Shown here: positions 639-8,066 of the stretch, piece after piece | Layout: the number at the start of each line of letters is the position of its first letter | Numbering within the stretch: the first letter of the stretch is position 1 | Origin: Sedimenticola sp. | GTDB lineage: Bacteria; Pseudomonadota; Gammaproteobacteria; Chromatiales; Chromatiaceae | Length of the DNA: 59,549 nucleotides | Direction of reading: 5' to 3' | NCBI GenBank assembly: GCA_026984735.1 | Contig: JALSRN010000038.1 | Coordinates: forward strand, 1-59,549 | Notes under the pieces: generated by a model | Told to the model about the DNA's origin: nothing | Seen by the model: the letters and a program-made list of their open reading frames with translations, nothing else | The model's database searches: none | Program-made: the position numbers and the translations under genes

Positions 639-3452
639 GTGAGCAACAACTACAAGGAGACACTCAACCTCCCCAAGACCGATTTTCCCATGCGTGGCAA
701 CTTGGCCCGGCGGGAGCCGCAGGCGCTGAAGCAGTGGGAAGAGAAGCAGCTCTATCGGCGCATCCGCGAAGCGCGTGCCGGCTGCGACAAATTCATTCTT
801 CACGACGGCCCCCCTTACGCCAACGGCGACATCCACATCGGCCACGCAGTGAACAAAGTGCTCAAGGACATCATCGTCAAGAGCCGTACCCTCGACGGTT
901 ATGACGCGCCCTACGTCCCCGGGTGGGACTGCCACGGCCTGCCCATCGAGCTGCAGGTGGAGAAGAGGGTGGGCAAGCCGGGACAGAAGGTGAGCGCGGC
1001 CGAGTTCCGCCGCGCTTGCCGCGACTACGCCCGCGGCCAGGTGGAGCGGCAGATGGCCGATTTCAAGCGGCTGCTGGTGGTGGGCGACTGGGAGAACCCC
1101 TACCTCACCATGAATTTCCAGCAGGAGGCCGACATCGTCCGCTCGCTGGGACGCATCGTGGCGGCGGGGCACCTGCACAAGGGCTCCAAGCCGGTGAACT
1201 GGTGCATCGAGTGCGGCTCGGCCCTGGCCGAGGCGGAGGTGGATTATCTGGACAAGAGCTCCACCGCCATCGACGTGCGTTTTCCCGTGGTGGACGAGGC
1301 CGCCTTTCTGGACCGGTGCGACATGGCCGAGGTCGGGGAAGGGCCGCTCTCGGTGGTGATCTGGACCACCACTCCCTGGACGCTGCCGGCCAACCAAGCG
1401 GTGGCGCTCCACCCGGATCTGGAGTACCTGGTCGTCCAGGCCGGCGACGAGCGGTTGCTGGTGGCCGAGGGGCTCATGGAGGAGGCGGTGGCCCGGTGGG
1501 GCGTGGAGAGCCCTCGCCGCCTGGGGAGCTGTCGGGGCGCTGCGCTGGAAGGGGTGGAGCTGCGGCACCCCTTCTACGACCGCAAGGTTCCGATCATTCT
1601 CGGCGGGCACGTCACCCTCGACGCCGGCACCGGCGCCGTGCATACCGCGCCCGGTCATGGCCTGGAGGACTATGTGGTGGGTCGGGAATACGGCCTGGAG
1701 GTGGACAATCCGGTGCTGGGGGACGGCCGTTTCCGCGACGATCTGCCGCTCTTCGGCGGCCGGCCGGTGTTCGAGGCCAACGAAGAGGTGGTGAAAGTGC
1801 TTAAGGAGCGGGGCCGGCTGCTTTGCGCAGGCCGGCTCACCCACAGCTATCCCCACTGCTGGCGCCACAAGAGTCCCATCATCTTCCGCGCCACCCCTCA
1901 GTGGTTCATCAGCATGGATCAGAAGGGCTTGCGCCGCGCGGCCCTGGCCGAGATCGAACAGGTGCGGTGGCTCCCCGAGTGGGGGCGGGAACGCATTCGC
2001 GGCATGGTGGAGAACCGGCCCGACTGGTGTATCTCGCGCCAGCGCACCTGGGGGGTTCCCATCACCCTCTTCGTCCACCGCGACAGCGGCGATCTGCATC
2101 CGCGAACCCCGGAGCTGTTCGAAGAGGTGGCCCGACGGGTGGAGGAGAAGGGGATCGAGGCGTGGTTCGAGCTCGATCCCGCCGAGCTTCTGGGCGACGA
2201 CGCGGCGCACTACGACAAGGTCACCGACACTCTGGACGTCTGGTTCGACTCGGGGGTGACCCATGCCTGCGTCCTCGACCGCCGGCCGGAACTGAAGCGC
2301 CCCGCCGAGCTCTATCTGGAGGGCTCCGACCAGCACCGCGGTTGGTTCCAGTCCTCCCTACTCACTTCGGTGGCCATGACCGGCAAAGCGCCCTACCGTG
2401 CCTGCCTCACCCACGGCTTCACCGTGGACGCCCAGGGGCGCAAGATGTCCAAGTCCCTGGGCAACGTGGTGCAGCCGCAGAAAGTGATGAAGAGCCTCGG
2501 CGCGGACATCGTCCGCCTCTGGGTGGCGGCCACCGATTACCGGGCGGAGATGGCGGTTTCCGACGAGATTCTGGGGCGCATGGCCGACGCCTACCGGCGG
2601 CTGCGCAACACGCTCCGTTTTCTGCTGGCCAATCTGTTCGATTTCGATCCGGCGCGGCATCTCCTCGATCCGGAGCGGATGGTGGAGCTCGATCGCTGGA
2701 TCCTGGGGCAGGCGCGCAAGCTCCAGCAGGAGGTGGTGGAAGCCTACCGGGACTACAACTTCCACCTCATCCATCAGAAGGTGACCCAGTTCTGCGTGGT
2801 GGAGCTGGGCGGTTTTTATCTGGACGTGATCAAAGACCGGCAGTACACCTGCAAGACCGAAAGCCCGGCGCGCCGCTCCTGCCAGAGCGCCATTCATCAG
2901 ATCGCGGAAGCGATGGTTCGCTGGCTGGCGCCCATTCTCAGTTTCACCGCTCAGGAGGCGTGGGAGCATCTGCCCGGTGAGCGGGACGAGTTTGTCTTCA
3001 CCCAACATTGGCACCGTTTTCCCCGAGAAGCCGCCGGCGGCGGGCGGCTGGACGAGGCCGACTGGCAGCGGCTCTTGAGAGCGCGCGGCGAGGTGAGCCG
3101 GGTGCTGGAAGGGATGCGCAAGGCGGGCGAAATCGGCTCTTCCCTGGACGCCGAGGTGGTGCTCTACTGCGATGGCAAGCTCCGCGAGAGCCTGGCGAAA
3201 CTGGAGGACGAGCTGCGTTTCGCCCTCATCACCTCCCATGCCCGGCTGAAGCCCCTGGCCGAGGCGGGGCCGGAAGCGGTGGAGACCCAAGTGACCGGGC
3301 TGAAGGTGGCGGCGGCGGCTTCCAGTCATCCCAAATGCGTCCGCTGTTGGCACCACCGGGAGGACGTGGGCACTCATCCCGATCATCCTCAGCTCTGCGG
3401 CCGCTGCGTGGAGAACGTGGAGGGGCGCGGAGAGGAGCGCCGTTTTGCCTGA
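639..3452 (+). CDS. ileS: Isoleucyl-tRNA synthetase
   Basis: Charges tRNA-Ile with isoleucine in the cytoplasm and edits mischarged valine. The 937-residue length is normal for bacterial IleRS. The class I HIGH motif appears as HIGH near residue 65, after PPYANGD, and KMSKS is at about residues 602-606. The CP1 editing domain lies between them, and a tRNA anticodon-binding domain follows. The C-terminus has a zinc-ribbon pattern, CVRCWHH then CGRC, near residues 899-922. The start is GTG at 639, with an AGGA-type site somewhat far upstream. The end overlaps lspA by 8 bp, which suggests translational coupling. Confidence 0.98.
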
Positions 3453-3939
3453 GCGGCTTTCCACCACGCCCTGGCTGCTGCTGGCAGTCGGAGTGGCGTT
3501 GGCGGACCAGCTCACGAAGGGGTGGATGCTGGCCCATTTCGAGCCGGGGGAGGTGCGCAGCGTGCTCCCTTTCTTCAATCTGGTGCTCACTTTCAACGAG
3601 GGGGCCGCCTTCAGCTTTCTCAGCGAGGCGGGCGGCTGGCAGCGCTGGTTCTTCGTGGCGCTCACCCTGGTCGTGGCCGGTGCGCTGGTCATCTGGCTGC
3701 GGCGCCTTCGTTCTGGCGAAGGGCTCACCGCCCTGGCGTTGGCGTTGATCCTGGGGGGCGCATTGGGAAATCTGGTGGATCGGCTGCGGATGGGCCGGGT
3801 CACCGATTTTCTCGATCTCCACTGGCAGCAGTGGCACTGGCCCGCCTTCAACCTGGCCGACTCCGCCATCACCGTCGGCGTGGTGGTACTTCTGCTCTCC
3901 TCCGGGCGGCAGAAAAAAACCCGGCCACATTTCGTGTGA
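3445..3939 (+). CDS. lspA: Prolipoprotein signal peptidase (signal peptidase II)
   Basis: An inner-membrane aspartyl protease that removes the signal peptide of diacylated prolipoproteins. The protein has 164 residues and four predicted hydrophobic segments. Both catalytic aspartates are visible: D112 in GNLVDR and D139 in FNLADSAI. Translation probably starts at TTG 3445, inside the end of ileS; no better start lies downstream before the first membrane segment. The usual partners fkpB and ispH do not follow. The 3' end overlaps a strong minus-strand terminator hairpin that appears to serve the opposite-strand transcript. Likely clients in this window are BamD, OppA and the polysaccharide export lipoprotein. 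Confidence 0.96.
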
Positions 3940-3944
3940 CCGGG
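3913..3944 (-). terminator. Strong intrinsic terminator for the btuF side
   Basis: Read on the minus strand, CCCGGTCACA and TGTGGCCGGG form a 10-bp stem (one G-T pair) around a CGAAA loop, followed at once by seven T. The plus strand has no T-run after the hairpin, so it is directional. It lies 100 bp after the btuF stop and overlaps the last codons of lspA. It would end either the ampD-btuF mRNA or a separate small RNA. Confidence 0.85.
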
Positions 3945-4035
3945 GTGTCGCCAGGCTTGCTCTGGATCTTCCTTGGGCCTTCCCTGAAGGAAACTTCCCT
4001 GTTCCGTTCTCCTTCCTGGAGTCTCCTTGCTTCGG
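3913..4035 (-). ncRNA. Candidate CsrA/RsmA-sequestering small RNA (RsmY/RsmZ/CsrB-like)
   Basis: The minus strand between the btuF stop and the terminator is purine-rich. It holds seven GGA motifs in the 57 nt from 4026 to 3970. At least one is in a hairpin loop: CTCC-AGGAA-GGAG at 4021-4009. Others sit between short pairing segments, such as GGAA/TTCC around CAGGGAAGT. The region ends in a 10-bp terminator stem with seven T. A GacA-box-like palindrome lies upstream at 4095-4112, and a weak promoter (CTGAAG, 17 nt, CTGAAT) would start transcription near 4035. That would give a transcript of about 120 nt, similar to the RsmY/RsmZ family. It could instead be only the 3' UTR of btuF. Confidence 0.5.
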
Positions 4036-4041
4036 CGACGG

Positions 4042-4070
4042 ATTCAGTTTCTCAAAAGGGGCGTCTTCAG
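4042..4070 (-). promoter_or_regulatory. Possible activator-dependent promoter of the candidate small RNA
   Basis: On the minus strand CTGAAG (4070-4065) and CTGAAT (4047-4042) are separated by 17 nt and match the sigma-70 boxes only partly. Weak boxes are expected for an activator-dependent promoter. The -10 box overlaps the btuF stop codon. Confidence 0.3.
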
Positions 4071-4895
4071 TCTGTCGGCGGCTGCGGAAGCGGGTGTAGG
4101 CAAATTCCTACAGAGCTCCTCCAGCCCCTCCGCCAGGCGGGGACCGGGGCGCTCCAGCGCAGGGGGTATGGCGACCGCAGGGGCATCCTGGGGATTGGGA
4201 TCGGTCGCCGGGCGGGCGGTGAGAAGAAGATCGTAGGGGCGGCTGAGCACGGCTTCCCGGCCGATGCGGATCACTCCCGCCGGCACGTCGGCGAAGACGT
4301 TCGCCAGCCGCGCCCGTTGCAACAGCTCGTTGATCCAGTGGCGGCCGCCGACGGTCATGGGCGGGTCCGGCCAGATCTGGTAATAGACCCGCAGCGGTGC
4401 TGCGTGCCGGCGGGAGGCGCAGGCGGCCGACAGCCTCTTCTCGAAGAGGCGGGCGGCCCGCTCGCCGACCCGCGGCACGCCGGCCAGTAGGGCGATCTTG
4501 CGCAAAGCCGCGGCGATGTCGGCCAGGTGGCGCGGCTCGGTGCGATAGACGGCGATGCCCGCGGCGGCCAGCCAGCTCAGGTCCGCCGGTCGGTTGCCAG
4601 ACTGCCAGGCCACCACCAGATCGGGCCGGAGCTGCAACAACCGCTCACGGTCCAACGGCCCCAGGGCGGCCAGGCGGGGCACCCGGCGCAGCGCCGGTGG
4701 ATAGTTCGCGAAATCGGCCACCGCCGCCAGGCGCGATTCCAGCCCCAATGCCAGCACCAGCTCGGTGGCGTGGGGCGCCAGGGTGACGATGTGCCGGGCG
4801 GGGCGGGTGAGAACCACCTTCTGGCCGGTATCGTCGACGACTTGCAATGGGGCGGAGGTCGCGGCCAACAGCAGGATCAACGGCAGCCACTTCAT
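4044..4895 (-). CDS. btuF: Periplasmic cobalamin/iron-complex-type substrate-binding protein (BtuF-like)
   Basis: A 283-residue class III periplasmic binding protein of the BtuF/FhuD type. It starts with a signal peptide (MKWLPLILLLAATSA). The typical opening is present, with RPARHIVTLAPHATELVLALG and later LRPDLVVAWQSGN. Such proteins deliver a corrinoid or iron chelate to a BtuCD-type importer, but no permease or ATPase gene is adjacent, so the substrate is uncertain. ATG 4895 was chosen because it precedes the signal peptide and overlaps the ampD stop by 4 bp (ATGA). Codons for CRNLPT near the C-terminus contain the palindrome at 4095-4112. Confidence 0.82.
   Translation of the reverse strand: MKWLPLILLLAATSAPLQVVDDTGQKVVLTRPARHIVTLAPHATELVLALGLESRLAAVADFANYPPALRRVPRLAALGPLDRERLLQLRPDLVVAWQSGNRPADLSWLAAAGIAVYRTEPRHLADIAAALRKIALLAGVPRVGERAARLFEKRLSAACASRRHAAPLRVYYQIWPDPPMTVGGRHWINELLQRARLANVFADVPAGVIRIGREAVLSRPYDLLLTARPATDPNPQDAPAVAIPPALERPGPRLAEGLEELCRNLPTPASAAADRLKTPLLRN
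4095..4112 (-). promoter_or_regulatory. GacA-box-like palindrome
   Basis: TGTAGG-N6-CCTACA has the architecture of the GacA/UvrY upstream activating site (consensus TGTAAG-N6-CTTACA). One position changes in each half, and the changes preserve the dyad. Its centre is about 68 nt upstream of the proposed small-RNA start, within the range known for rsmY and rsmZ. It is embedded in the 3' coding part of btuF. Confidence 0.5.
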
Positions 4896-5467
4896 GGCCG
4901 GGACGCCAGCAGCTCGCGGATTCGTCGCCACTCGAAAGCGGGACCGGGATCGGTTTTTCGATCCGGCGCGATGTGGCAATGGCCGACGACGCGCTCCGGG
5001 GTGATGGCGGGGAAACGACTCATGATCCGCCGGATCGTTCGGGCCAGAACATCGTACTGAAGATCGGTGTATGGGATCCGGTCGGCGCCTTCCAGCTCGA
5101 TGCCGATGGAGTAGTCGTTGCACCGTTCGCGCCCCTGGAACGAGGAGACGCCGGCATGCCAGGCCCGTCTGTTCAGTGGCACGAACTGCACCAGCGCGCC
5201 GTCACGCCGGATGAGCAGGTGACTGGAGACCCGCAAATGGTGGATCTCCCGGAAGAACGGGTGCCGGTATCTGGGCAGCCGGTTGAGAAAGAGCTGTTCG
5301 ATCCAATCGCCGCCGAAGACGCCCGGCGGAAGACTGATACCGTGGATCACCACCAAGTCCACGGCGATGCCTTCGGGTCGGTCGTCGCAGTTGGGCGACG
5401 GGATCCTTCGGGCGCCCTCGAGCCATAGTGCTTCTTCGGCATTTCTCGGATTTGAAGGGATCGTCAT
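4892..5467 (-). CDS. ampD: 1,6-anhydro-N-acetylmuramyl-L-alanine amidase AmpD
   Basis: A zinc amidase that cleaves anhydro-muropeptides during cell-wall recycling in the cytoplasm. The protein has 191 residues, close to the family length. The zinc ligands are visible: H42 in VVIHGISLPP, then GHCHIAPDRKTDPG near residues 156-170 with its His and Asp. A catalytic Glu lies in SIGIELEG. AWHAG is the conserved substrate-site element. ATG 5467 was chosen because the next upstream start (5515) adds 16 unconserved residues. The last base of the stop overlaps btuF, so the two genes are coupled. Confidence 0.93.
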   Translation of the reverse strand: MTIPSNPRNAEEALWLEGARRIPSPNCDDRPEGIAVDLVVIHGISLPPGVFGGDWIEQLFLNRLPRYRHPFFREIHHLRVSSHLLIRRDGALVQFVPLNRRAWHAGVSSFQGRERCNDYSIGIELEGADRIPYTDLQYDVLARTIRRIMSRFPAITPERVVGHCHIAPDRKTDPGPAFEWRRIRELLASRP

Positions 5468-5855
5468 GGGGACATCGGCATTTGGTCGGTAGCCCGACTC
5501 TTGAGACCAGTGCAACTTCGACCTCCACAGTGTGCCATCTTATTGCGGTGGATTCGGCGGGGATTTCGGCGGCGATGCCGTTACAATGGGTCTGGCTTGG
5601 ACGGTCGTCACGGAAAAAAATCGAAAAATCGTCTATGATTATTTAAACTCAACAACTTGAAGTCATTTTGTTAAGAACTGGTTTAAAAACACATTGTATT
5701 GTTTGGTTCCATGTGGGTAGGGTGAAAGGGGTATAACCTCCCATTATGGAGAAGACTTCAGCGGCGAGAAAGGGGCGAAACGAAAGGGAAGGGAGATTTC
5801 CTGGATGTCCTCCTGTAACCAGCCACCATAACAACGATTGAGAAAGGGCACATTC
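5468..5855. other. 388-bp divergent intergenic region with an AT-rich core
   Basis: Holds the promoters of ampD (minus) and the DUF1631 gene (plus). About 5620-5720 is markedly AT-rich against the GC-rich genome. Within it, TTTAAAC (5642-5648) and GTTTAAA (5681-5687) form an inverted repeat around a nested AACAA/TTGTT pair. TATGAT and TATAAC look like -10 boxes but have no well-spaced -35. The open frame at 5428-5646 has no ribosome-binding site or family features. No gene is called here. Confidence 0.6.
5642..5687. repeat. AT-rich nested inverted repeat
   Basis: TTTAAAC at 5642-5648 pairs with GTTTAAA at 5681-5687. Inside, AACAA (5651-5655) can pair with TTGTT (5668-5672). It may be a protein-binding dyad or a melting-prone promoter segment; there is no T-run that would make it a terminator. 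Confidence 0.4.
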
Positions 5856-8066
5856 ATGGCGAAGCCCTACAAATCGGTGCTCACCCGGCCCCAATTGCAG
5901 AGGCTGGCCGCTCTTTTCAGCCGGCGGGTGGCGGAGTGGCTGGATGCCCGGCTCGACATCTATTTTTCTGCTTTGCAGGAGCGCTTCTTCGAGAAGATGG
6001 AGCAGGCTCCCAACGATGAAGCGCGCCACGATTTTGCCCACGCGGCCCGGGAGCTCCCAAAAAGGCAGGTGGCTGTGGGCCAGGTGTTTCGCGCCAATCT
6101 GCTCAAGGCGGTGGAGACCTTCTTTCTCCATTATGAAGCCTATCTCGAGGAGTTCATCCACGCCTTCACCAGTTCTGCCGGAGACCAGGGTGCGTTGGAG
6201 CTGGTGAACAACGAAAAGCTGGAGGAAGATCTGGTCATCCTCCGGGTGTCGCACCAAGCCACCACTCGCCTGCAGCCGGCTTACAAAGAGGTTACTTCCT
6301 ACTTGGCCGCCGTGGTGCAGCCCAAGGATCTGCCGCCCAATGGAACGCCGCTTTCCCCCCAGGTGATCGCCAACTGCTTGCGAATGGCTCTTTCTGGTTG
6401 GGAAGGAACACCGGCTTCCCGTTTTCTTTTCTATCAGACGCTGGCCGAAGAGTTGATGCCAAAGCTCTCCCTGCTCTTCGAGCCCACCATCGCAGCGCTT
6501 CGCGATCTCGGTCTGGAGCCAGTGGAATCTCGGTTGAAAATGAAACGGACGGCAGTTCGGCAACGCGCTCTGCCTCTACCTCCGCATCCGAGGACACCTG
6601 AAAATATCGTCCCTTCCGGAGCGGCGCAGGACGAGGCCACCATCTTTTCGGTACTTGGCCTGATGCGCCAAATGGACGAGCAGGACCGCAAGGACCTGAA
6701 GATGGTTGGATCTTTGGCAGGAGCCGCTTCCAAACCAGGGCCCGCATTGAGACCCGACACGCTGATGGAGGTGGTAGAAGGGTTGAAGGGAGAGCGGTTT
6801 AGGGAGGTTGAGAATCTCCAAGAGATGCGTAGCATCCAACGCCGGTGGAAAGAAACACTGGTGGTGAAATTGAAGGAGAAGATGGCGCAAGAGCACGCCA
6901 AGCTGCATCAGTTGGACCAGCAGATCCTTGACATCGTCACCATGCTGTTCGATTTTGTTCTCGACGACTCTTTGATACCCGACTCCATGAAAGTGCTGCT
7001 GGTTCGCCTGCAGATACCGGTTCTACAGATCGCAATTCGTGACAAGACCTTTCTCACCGACAATCGCCATCCCGCGCGTCTGTTGATCAACAACCTATCC
7101 AGAGCTGCGGTCCGTTGGGCAGGAAGAACAGACTGTACCGAAGACAATGTCTATGCCATGATCCAGGATACGGTATGTATCGTTCTGGAAGGGGATGCGG
7201 GGGATCCAGACCTCTACCGGGAGGCGAACTGCCGCTTCGAAGCCTTTCTGGCTCAAGAAGAGCGGGGGGCAAGAGTGGCGGAGGAACGCCTGTCGCAAGT
7301 GGCTCGGGGCAAGGAGCAGCTGGCCTTGGCGCGTCGTCGCGTGAACACTCTTCTCGACCGACTGGTCAGTGAGGAGCTTCCGGATGTGGTGCGAGAGATC
7401 CTTGAAGACGTGTGGCGCGACGTGCTCACACTCGTGCTGCTGCGTGAAGGGGAAGAGAGCGATGCTTGGCGCGATGCTTTGGGGGTGGCGACAAGGCTGG
7501 CGCGGGGCTCCTGGAACTTGGAGTCTCGAGAAGAATCCGTTTCCATCGAAAAAGAGGCTCCCGATCTGCTGGGAGAACTACGCCGGGGATTCGCTTCCAT
7601 CGCCTACGACTCCAAGAAGGCGGCGCAGCTGTTGGAACGTCTGGAAGGTTGCTATGCGGCCGTCTCGCGGGGGGATGGCCCCTGCTTATCCGAACCCATC
7701 ACGGAAGAGGATGAGGAAAAGCCGCTCGGCGACACAGCGTACCCTTCGGAGCCGGATCGGTGGGACCGGCTCGTGGCCTCTCTGAAAGAGGGAGATTGGG
7801 TCCGCTGGGAGGCCACGGAGGGAGAAGAGTACCGTGGCAAGCTGGTGTGGCGCAGCGAGATCGCCGACCTCCTGCTCTTCGTGGACATGCGTGGGCGCAA
7901 GCTGGCCGAACACACCAGCCAACGGCTCGCGGAGCTTTTCCGACAGGGCCACGCCTCGGTGCTCGAACAGATCGATCAGCCCTTCATGGAACGGGCTCTG
8001 CACTATCTGCACCAGTTATTGAGCCGGCGGGTGGCGCGTCACTCGCCCCGCATCCTGCCGGCTTGA
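5856..8066 (+). CDS. DUF1631 family protein
   Basis: A 736-residue soluble protein recognised by the DUF1631 core near residues 385-410 (LVRLQIPVLQIAIRDKTFL, then HPARLLINNL). Members are often mislabelled thymidine phosphorylase; no enzymatic motif of that family is seen. The N-terminal 200 residues are helical and rich in charged residues. A coiled-coil-like stretch spans about residues 310-355. A compact segment near 635-690 (WDRLVASLKEGDWV, then LFVDMRGRKLA) resembles the small beta domain found at the end of these proteins. ATG 5856 follows GAGAAAGGG at good spacing; the upstream TTG 5838 is less likely. The gene stands just before nadC. Function is unknown. Confidence 0.8.
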   Translation: MAKPYKSVLTRPQLQRLAALFSRRVAEWLDARLDIYFSALQERFFEKMEQAPNDEARHDFAHAARELPKRQVAVGQVFRANLLKAVETFFLHYEAYLEEFIHAFTSSAGDQGALELVNNEKLEEDLVILRVSHQATTRLQPAYKEVTSYLAAVVQPKDLPPNGTPLSPQVIANCLRMALSGWEGTPASRFLFYQTLAEELMPKLSLLFEPTIAALRDLGLEPVESRLKMKRTAVRQRALPLPPHPRTPENIVPSGAAQDEATIFSVLGLMRQMDEQDRKDLKMVGSLAGAASKPGPALRPDTLMEVVEGLKGERFREVENLQEMRSIQRRWKETLVVKLKEKMAQEHAKLHQLDQQILDIVTMLFDFVLDDSLIPDSMKVLLVRLQIPVLQIAIRDKTFLTDNRHPARLLINNLSRAAVRWAGRTDCTEDNVYAMIQDTVCIVLEGDAGDPDLYREANCRFEAFLAQEERGARVAEERLSQVARGKEQLALARRRVNTLLDRLVSEELPDVVREILEDVWRDVLTLVLLREGEESDAWRDALGVATRLARGSWNLESREESVSIEKEAPDLLGELRRGFASIAYDSKKAAQLLERLEGCYAAVSRGDGPCLSEPITEEDEEKPLGDTAYPSEPDRWDRLVASLKEGDWVRWEATEGEEYRGKLVWRSEIADLLLFVDMRGRKLAEHTSQRLAELFRQGHASVLEQIDQPFMERALHYLHQLLSRRVARHSPRILPA

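Follow-up and report, generated by a model that had tools for sequence, protein, structure and literature searches.

The 3' region of a btuF-like gene in a Sedimenticola contig raises the question of whether a separate regulatory RNA is encoded where a transporter gene ends, and what such an RNA would do for the cell. The window, that is, the whole stretch of 59,549 nucleotides analysed here, belongs to the genome of a marine sulfur bacterium, 2.44 Mb in 101 contigs (hereafter G000). The original prediction for this locus had proposed a GacA-driven CsrA sponge, and the sequence-level tests reported below supported this reading. On the basis of current results, we consider it highly probable (about 0.92) that the RNA gene specifies a GacA-activated, CsrA-sequestering small RNA (sRNA) of the RsmX/RsmY/RsmZ and CsrB/CsrC kind. 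RsmX, RsmY and RsmZ of Pseudomonas are described as short RNAs that carry 6-10 GGA motifs, follow an 18-bp palindromic upstream activating sequence and occur in more than one copy per genome (PMC7911923, PMC4950607). The predicted RNA is similar to them in its short length, its GGA motifs and its 18-bp upstream palindrome.

The coordinates of all features at the locus are shown in Table 1. As the btuF stop codon occupies 4046-4044, both the palindrome and the putative promoter fall within btuF and the RNA lies downstream of it. The product of this gene scored 109.7 bits with the BtuF model NF002894, below the cut-off of 234, and 64.4 bits with the TroA_like model NF038402, above the cut-off of 30. 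On the other side, the terminator extends in antisense orientation into the final codons of lspA, whose end is at 3939. The two putative promoter elements in the window are separated by a spacer of 17 nt, and the predicted start of the RNA was deduced from the -10 element. The primary transcript would begin at CCGTCGCC, near 4040, and these estimates amend the previously suggested start (about 4035), the distance from the palindrome centre to the start (about 68 nt, now about 64 nt) and the transcript length (about 120 nt, now about 127 nt). It should be noted that the putative promoter was absent from the output of a simple sigma-70 scan, though its elements are conserved by sequence.

Table 1. 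Positions of the predicted RNA gene, its putative control elements and the neighbouring genes in the window.
Feature	Position	Strand	Remarks
Predicted sRNA gene	3913..4040	minus	About 127 nt, 7 GGA / 6 ANGGA; model R1, 118 bits (sequence in R1 training set)
Putative GacA/UvrY-type upstream activating palindrome TGTAGG-AATTTG-CCTACA	4095..4112	minus	Within the btuF 3' end
Putative -35 element CAGACT	4069..4074	minus	ACAGAC at the same place in 14/14 genus loci
Putative -10 element GAAACT	4046..4051	minus	43 nt after the palindrome; GATACT in several relatives
Closing stem, 5' arm GTCGCC	4034..4039	minus	Partner 3952-3947
Closing stem, 3' arm GGCGAC	3947..3952	minus	Partner 4039-4034
GGA cluster (seven GGA), proposed CsrA-binding region	3970..4026	minus	Based on motif counts and shuffles
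Intrinsic terminator	3913..3944	minus	10-bp stem 3944-3920 plus seven T to 3913; antisense to the lspA 3' end
btuF-like B12-binding protein gene	4044..5051	minus	Contains the palindrome and putative promoter; open frame used overlaps ampD, start codon provisional
lspA	3445..3939	plus	Convergent neighbour; TIGR00077, 143 bits, above cut-off

Three elements of the original prediction were found just as described: seven GGA motifs at 4026-3970 of the minus strand, a 10-bp terminator stem (3944-3920) followed by seven T, and the TGTAGG-N6-CCTACA dyad at 4095-4112 with the 6-6-6 spacing of GacA sites. When the region 3000-5000 was shuffled with its dinucleotide composition retained, at least seven GGA in any 57-nt stretch were reached in 6 of 500 shuffles. 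The more specific motif ANGGA occurs six times in the 97 nt of 4041-3945 against a shuffle mean of 1.6, a count reached in 2 of 2000 shuffles. However, three more sites in the window (+10078, +57982 and -44880) contain 7-8 GGA per 57 nt, so GGA density alone is no proof. The window also has 29 perfect 6-6-6 dyads against 14.5 expected, and the palindrome at 4112-4095 is the one among them that starts with TGT. These other GGA-dense stretches and dyads lend something to the view that the locus is a mere terminator and purine-rich spacer between convergent genes, in which the GGA motifs and the palindrome came together by chance. Such a view does not account for the excess of ANGGA, for a T run that is found on one strand only of the inverted repeat at the terminator, or for the conservation in genus and family and the paired stems reported below. 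A chance origin of the GGA array and palindrome was rejected on conservation, paired stems and ANGGA excess, and its probability appears close to negligible.

Folding predictions indicated that the RNA stretch is more stable than its shuffled versions (z -2.85; 2 of 200 shuffles were equally or more stable) and that the body of the RNA is weakly structured. The GGA motifs of the body are partly paired in the prediction for the window RNA, with unpaired probabilities of 0.1-0.99. The letters of a CTCC-AGGAA-GGAG stem-loop, which had been suggested to present one of the motifs, are indeed present, but the hairpin was neither part of the minimum-energy fold nor kept in the alignment. In 12 of 14 genus members, the loop of the terminator contains a GGA, which the window RNA lacks. 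In genome G008, the closing stem (p 0.22) is not the preferred fold.

When 55 genomes were searched at the DNA level, the RNA copy at the btuF end was found in ten other members of the genus. We then used a covariance model (R1) that was built from 11 sequences (the window and ten genus members) and covers the RNA part only, with the palindrome outside the model. R1 matched all but one of the 15 genus genomes, with scores of 108-146 bits, and 11 of the 14 matched genomes had supplied the training set. Among the four genus genomes outside the training set, G010, G014 and G003 were matched at 132-133 bits, and a search of G005, whose genome is 84% complete, gave no match. The exact halves of the palindrome are present 55-56 nt before GTCGCC in all 14 genus loci. 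Within the genus, no other part of the region upstream of the RNA is retained as strictly as the palindrome and the distance that separates it from the RNA. In 10 of the 14 loci, the TAG of the palindrome serves as the btuF stop codon. In the remaining four (G000, the window; G012; G008; G002), btuF reads through the palindrome in another frame, has an extended C-terminus and, counted from the first base of the palindrome, stops 66 or 81 nt further on. Since two btuF frames cross the same DNA, coding does not explain the conservation of the palindrome, and protein-coding constraint was ruled out as its cause. The comparison of relatives that had been proposed as a check was thus favourable: 14 of 15 genus genomes retain the palindrome together with the promoter elements, the ANGGA motifs, the closing stem and the terminator, and the btuF end drifts, even into another frame. 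The RNA is thus accompanied by a G/C variant of the palindrome that, in most genus members, also supplies the stop codon of btuF.

The same data bear on the possibility that the RNA is mainly a 3'-UTR product of the btuF mRNA, that is, a processed GGA-rich tail with little or no promoter of its own. An origin of this type would be compatible with the overlap between the btuF end and the palindrome and putative promoter, and with a simple scan of 2500-6000, which listed no other minus-strand terminator and did not list the proposed promoter either. It is, however, difficult to reconcile with the strictly kept spacing between palindrome and RNA within the genus, also where btuF is in a different frame. 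Furthermore, the RNA and palindrome occur in other genera with no BtuF match nearby (none in 20 loci, examined over about 1.5 kb on each side where the contig allows). Therefore, we consider an origin mainly from the btuF mRNA very unlikely.

Only one other exact TGTAGG-N6-CCTACA was identified in the window genome, on contig C94 (G000:C94:99782-99799, locus L040). No GGA array follows it, and it was discarded as a twin sRNA. Downstream of this palindrome (at about 1501 of L040) there is a small open frame with, by eye, a secreted-protein-like start, and this frame is a possible direct target of GacA.

Pairing in the stems was examined in an alignment of 47 places (A4), which was fitted to the structure of the model, so that its pair counts lean towards that structure. 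In A4, 97.4% of pair cells were paired and changes on both sides were observed in 10 of 15 pairs, compared with 5.4 in shuffles; the pairing was lost when the partner was displaced by one, two or three columns. Most of the pair variation was contributed by the terminator, in which seven of nine model pairs had a both-side change in relatives. The closing stem was paired in 99.6% of cells, and three of its six pairs had changed on both sides, in a single sequence in each case; it is invariant across the 11 aligned genus sequences.

To extend the analysis beyond the genus, R1 was applied to 194 genomes sampled from the family (probably Sedimenticolaceae) and to a class sample of 321 genomes with a threshold of E<=0.001. 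Matches were identified in 94 of the 194 family genomes (10 of them of the own genus), one of which, in G209, spans only about 50 bases. At E<=1, a level at which chance matches are expected, 117 of the 194 family genomes were matched. In the class sample, 10 of 321 genomes had a match, among them the window genome and a further member of the family. Seven of the nine class matches besides the window were inspected: L168, L169 and L171 (only L171 being of the own family) look like sRNAs and carry a palindrome-like site, and L170, L172, L173 and L175 were not accepted as sRNAs, having no palindrome-like site and looking terminator-driven. Some genomes contain multiple strong copies, for example, G095 (53 and 50 bits) and G070 (61 and 41 bits). 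In addition, a pattern scan of named genomes returned 35 stretches, 28 of which had a model match at E<=0.01 (L087 with 25.7 bits only). The organisms represented by these 28 include Sedimenticola selenatireducens, S. thiotaurini, S. hydrogenitrophicus, Candidatus Sedimenticola endophacoides and a Thiolapillus. The other seven (L084, L086, L094, L096, L101, L102 and L106) had no model match at E<=0.01 and were taken as chance; the titles of their records name Massilia, Nocardioidaceae, a gammaproteobacterium (L094), Bacteroidaceae, Chloroflexi, Rokuibacteriota and Gemmataceae. We also observed the RNA, at 46 bits, in a record titled Candidatus Polarisedimenticolaceae (L099:6779-6914), which may reflect a misbinned contig or transfer.

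The upstream palindrome accompanies the RNA in these other genera. A script placed the best palindrome match 59-60 nt ahead of the model start in 18 of the 21 RNA places found in 20 loci, and six of these matches were complete (12 of 12 letters). At L063 and L067, the palindrome could be seen by eye at the same place, and at L058 there was none at the expected place upstream of the RNA. The imperfect palindromes of other genera often approximate TTTCAGA-N4-TCCTACA. As about 0.3 matches of 8 of 12 letters are expected by chance per 130-nt stretch, such matches can be accidental, and it is their constant position that carries the argument. The excess of ANGGA was also general: counts in the first 95 nt of the 47 places were 2-6 against shuffle means of 0.5-1.8, and in 46 places no more than 13 of 200 shuffles reached the observed count. 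The exception was L169, with only 2 ANGGA, a count reached by 30 of 200 shuffles.

Direct assignment of the RNA to an Rfam family failed, all scores being below gathering. A scan of the whole window with Rfam release 15 gave no family at its gathering score, including RsmY (RF00195) and CsrB (RF00018), so that the covariance comparison suggested at the outset did not recognise the RNA. The CsrB model, which has 356 positions, scored 7.5 bits at the RNA against a gathering score of 71, and in this the window RNA is unlike enterobacterial CsrB. Among 15 loci of relatives, the sole match of such kind was RsmY at 19.1 bits (gathering score 57), at a copy of the second type described below (L134). 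Our data nevertheless indicate that the RNA carries most of the tested sequence-level features of GacA-dependent CsrA-sponge sRNAs and, as far as sequence can tell, is a new, unannotated family of a known kind in Thiolapillus/Sedimenticola-type bacteria. Unlike the Pseudomonas Rsm RNAs, it is predicted to hold its ANGGA motifs in a long loop with little structure, which the GTCGCC/GGCGAC stem closes, and its gene follows btuF. The same regulatory logic operates in another gammaproteobacterium, Legionella, where RsmY and RsmZ are under the control of LetA. Enterobacterial CsrB and CsrC are similar in acting as CsrA sponges under the BarA/UvrY system (PMC8639471).

We also considered the case of a real sRNA whose activator is not GacA but a regulator with a similar palindrome, or whose action depends on base-pairing instead of CsrA. 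The published Pseudomonas GacA site is given as TGTAAG-N6-CTTACA (PMC4950607, PMC9911603), and each half of the palindrome here (TGTAGG-N6-CCTACA) differs from it by one base, with G/C in place of A/T, a deviation that leaves some room for a different regulator. On the other hand, the 6-6-6 spacing and the upstream position match those of GacA sites in the same sources; the site here is at about -64, compared with -75 for rsmY and -196 for rsmZ of P. aeruginosa (PMC4950607). Both the ANGGA excess in nearly all relatives and the csrA and gacA-like genes of the genome likewise speak against this alternative, for which we see only a slim chance.

The window genome contains csrA as well as genes resembling gacA and barA/gacS, the partner genes whose presence had been named as a check. 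There is one copy of csrA (117.8 bits, cut-off 73), and its product aligns closely with solved CsrA chains, including the chain of 2jpp and the 2mf0 series, structures of a Pseudomonas protein with RNA. The best match to the GacA/UvrY family scored 268 bits (cut-off 280) and that to the BarA family 634 bits (cut-off 890), each over nearly the full length. The GacA-like gene is located about 0.8 kb from the 3' end of uvrC. The two proteins are probable orthologues of the sensor pair, an assignment that is uncertified because both scores are below the curated cut-offs.

Other members of the genus carry a second, shorter type of the RNA, for which a model (R2) was built from eight places in five genomes. 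Upstream of each of the eight, the top palindrome match agreed in 8 to 11 of 12 letters and lay 59-62 nt before the RNA; here, too, the constant position is what counts, as agreement in 8 of 12 letters can be accidental. In the window genome, a candidate second copy was identified on contig C48 (C48:25542-25423, minus strand; G000:C48:25615-25423, L114). It has a palindrome-like CGTCGGAAAATTCCTACA at 25615-25598, TAGGAT exactly 43 nt later, which equals the spacing of the window gene, as well as AGGGA motifs and a terminator. Because of its weak scores (23 bits with R2 and 21 bits with R1, the latter match being C48:25427), this locus is regarded as a candidate only; if real, the two-RNA arrangement would parallel RsmY plus RsmZ. 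Two other R1 matches in the own genome were dropped: C82:1529, a terminator only, by eye after the end of a tRNA, and C14:47979, with no palindrome of note. At L124 (G070) and L118 (G010), the sRNA occurs in tandem; the copies are separated by a few hundred bases, and every copy has a palindrome-like site. In two genomes of other genera (L123:4004-4127 and L125:8204-8324), a divergent second copy lies directly 3' of lspA and on the lspA strand, and the first copy is about 2.7 or 6.9 kb from it.

Taken together, the following mechanism may be proposed for the GacA-activated sponge. The BarA/GacS-like kinase would phosphorylate the GacA-like regulator, which would then bind the palindrome at about -64 and aid RNA polymerase at a weak promoter within the btuF end. 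The resulting RNA of about 127 nt is predicted to form a long, weakly structured loop on the GTCGCC/GGCGAC stem, followed by the terminator hairpin. Its ANGGA motifs would bind CsrA dimers, and the mRNAs targeted by CsrA would be freed. In an extended form of this scheme, the CsrA sponge would be produced both from its own promoter and from the 3' end of the btuF mRNA, and read-through or processing would couple B12 uptake to the state of the Csr system. Such a coupling would include antisense contact with the lspA 3' end, and the shared palindrome and btuF stop codon would be its physical joint. We regard this extension as rather unlikely.

In the literature searched, a scope that leaves out most subscription journals, no earlier description of the RNA in Sedimenticola or Sedimenticolaceae was found. 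Kulkarni et al. reportedly predicted sRNAs that regulate CsrA, and the RNA could figure there. R1 and the palindrome variant now permit annotation of the RNA across dozens of genomes, and because Thiolapillus brandeum is in culture, the prediction is open to experiment. In Candidatus Thiodiazotropha endolucinida, a clam symbiont of the same family, csrA occupies the top row of the published table that lists the annotated genes with the highest transcription common to three hosts (PMC13137333), and it is also among the highest-transcribed genes in other lucinid symbionts (PMC12172469); the terms 'GacA' and 'small RNA' are absent from the main texts of both papers. The RNA gains weight from this high transcription of csrA in symbionts of its family, as given in those texts, and it looks like the RNA arm of the Gac/Csr pathway in the Sedimenticola/Thiolapillus group.
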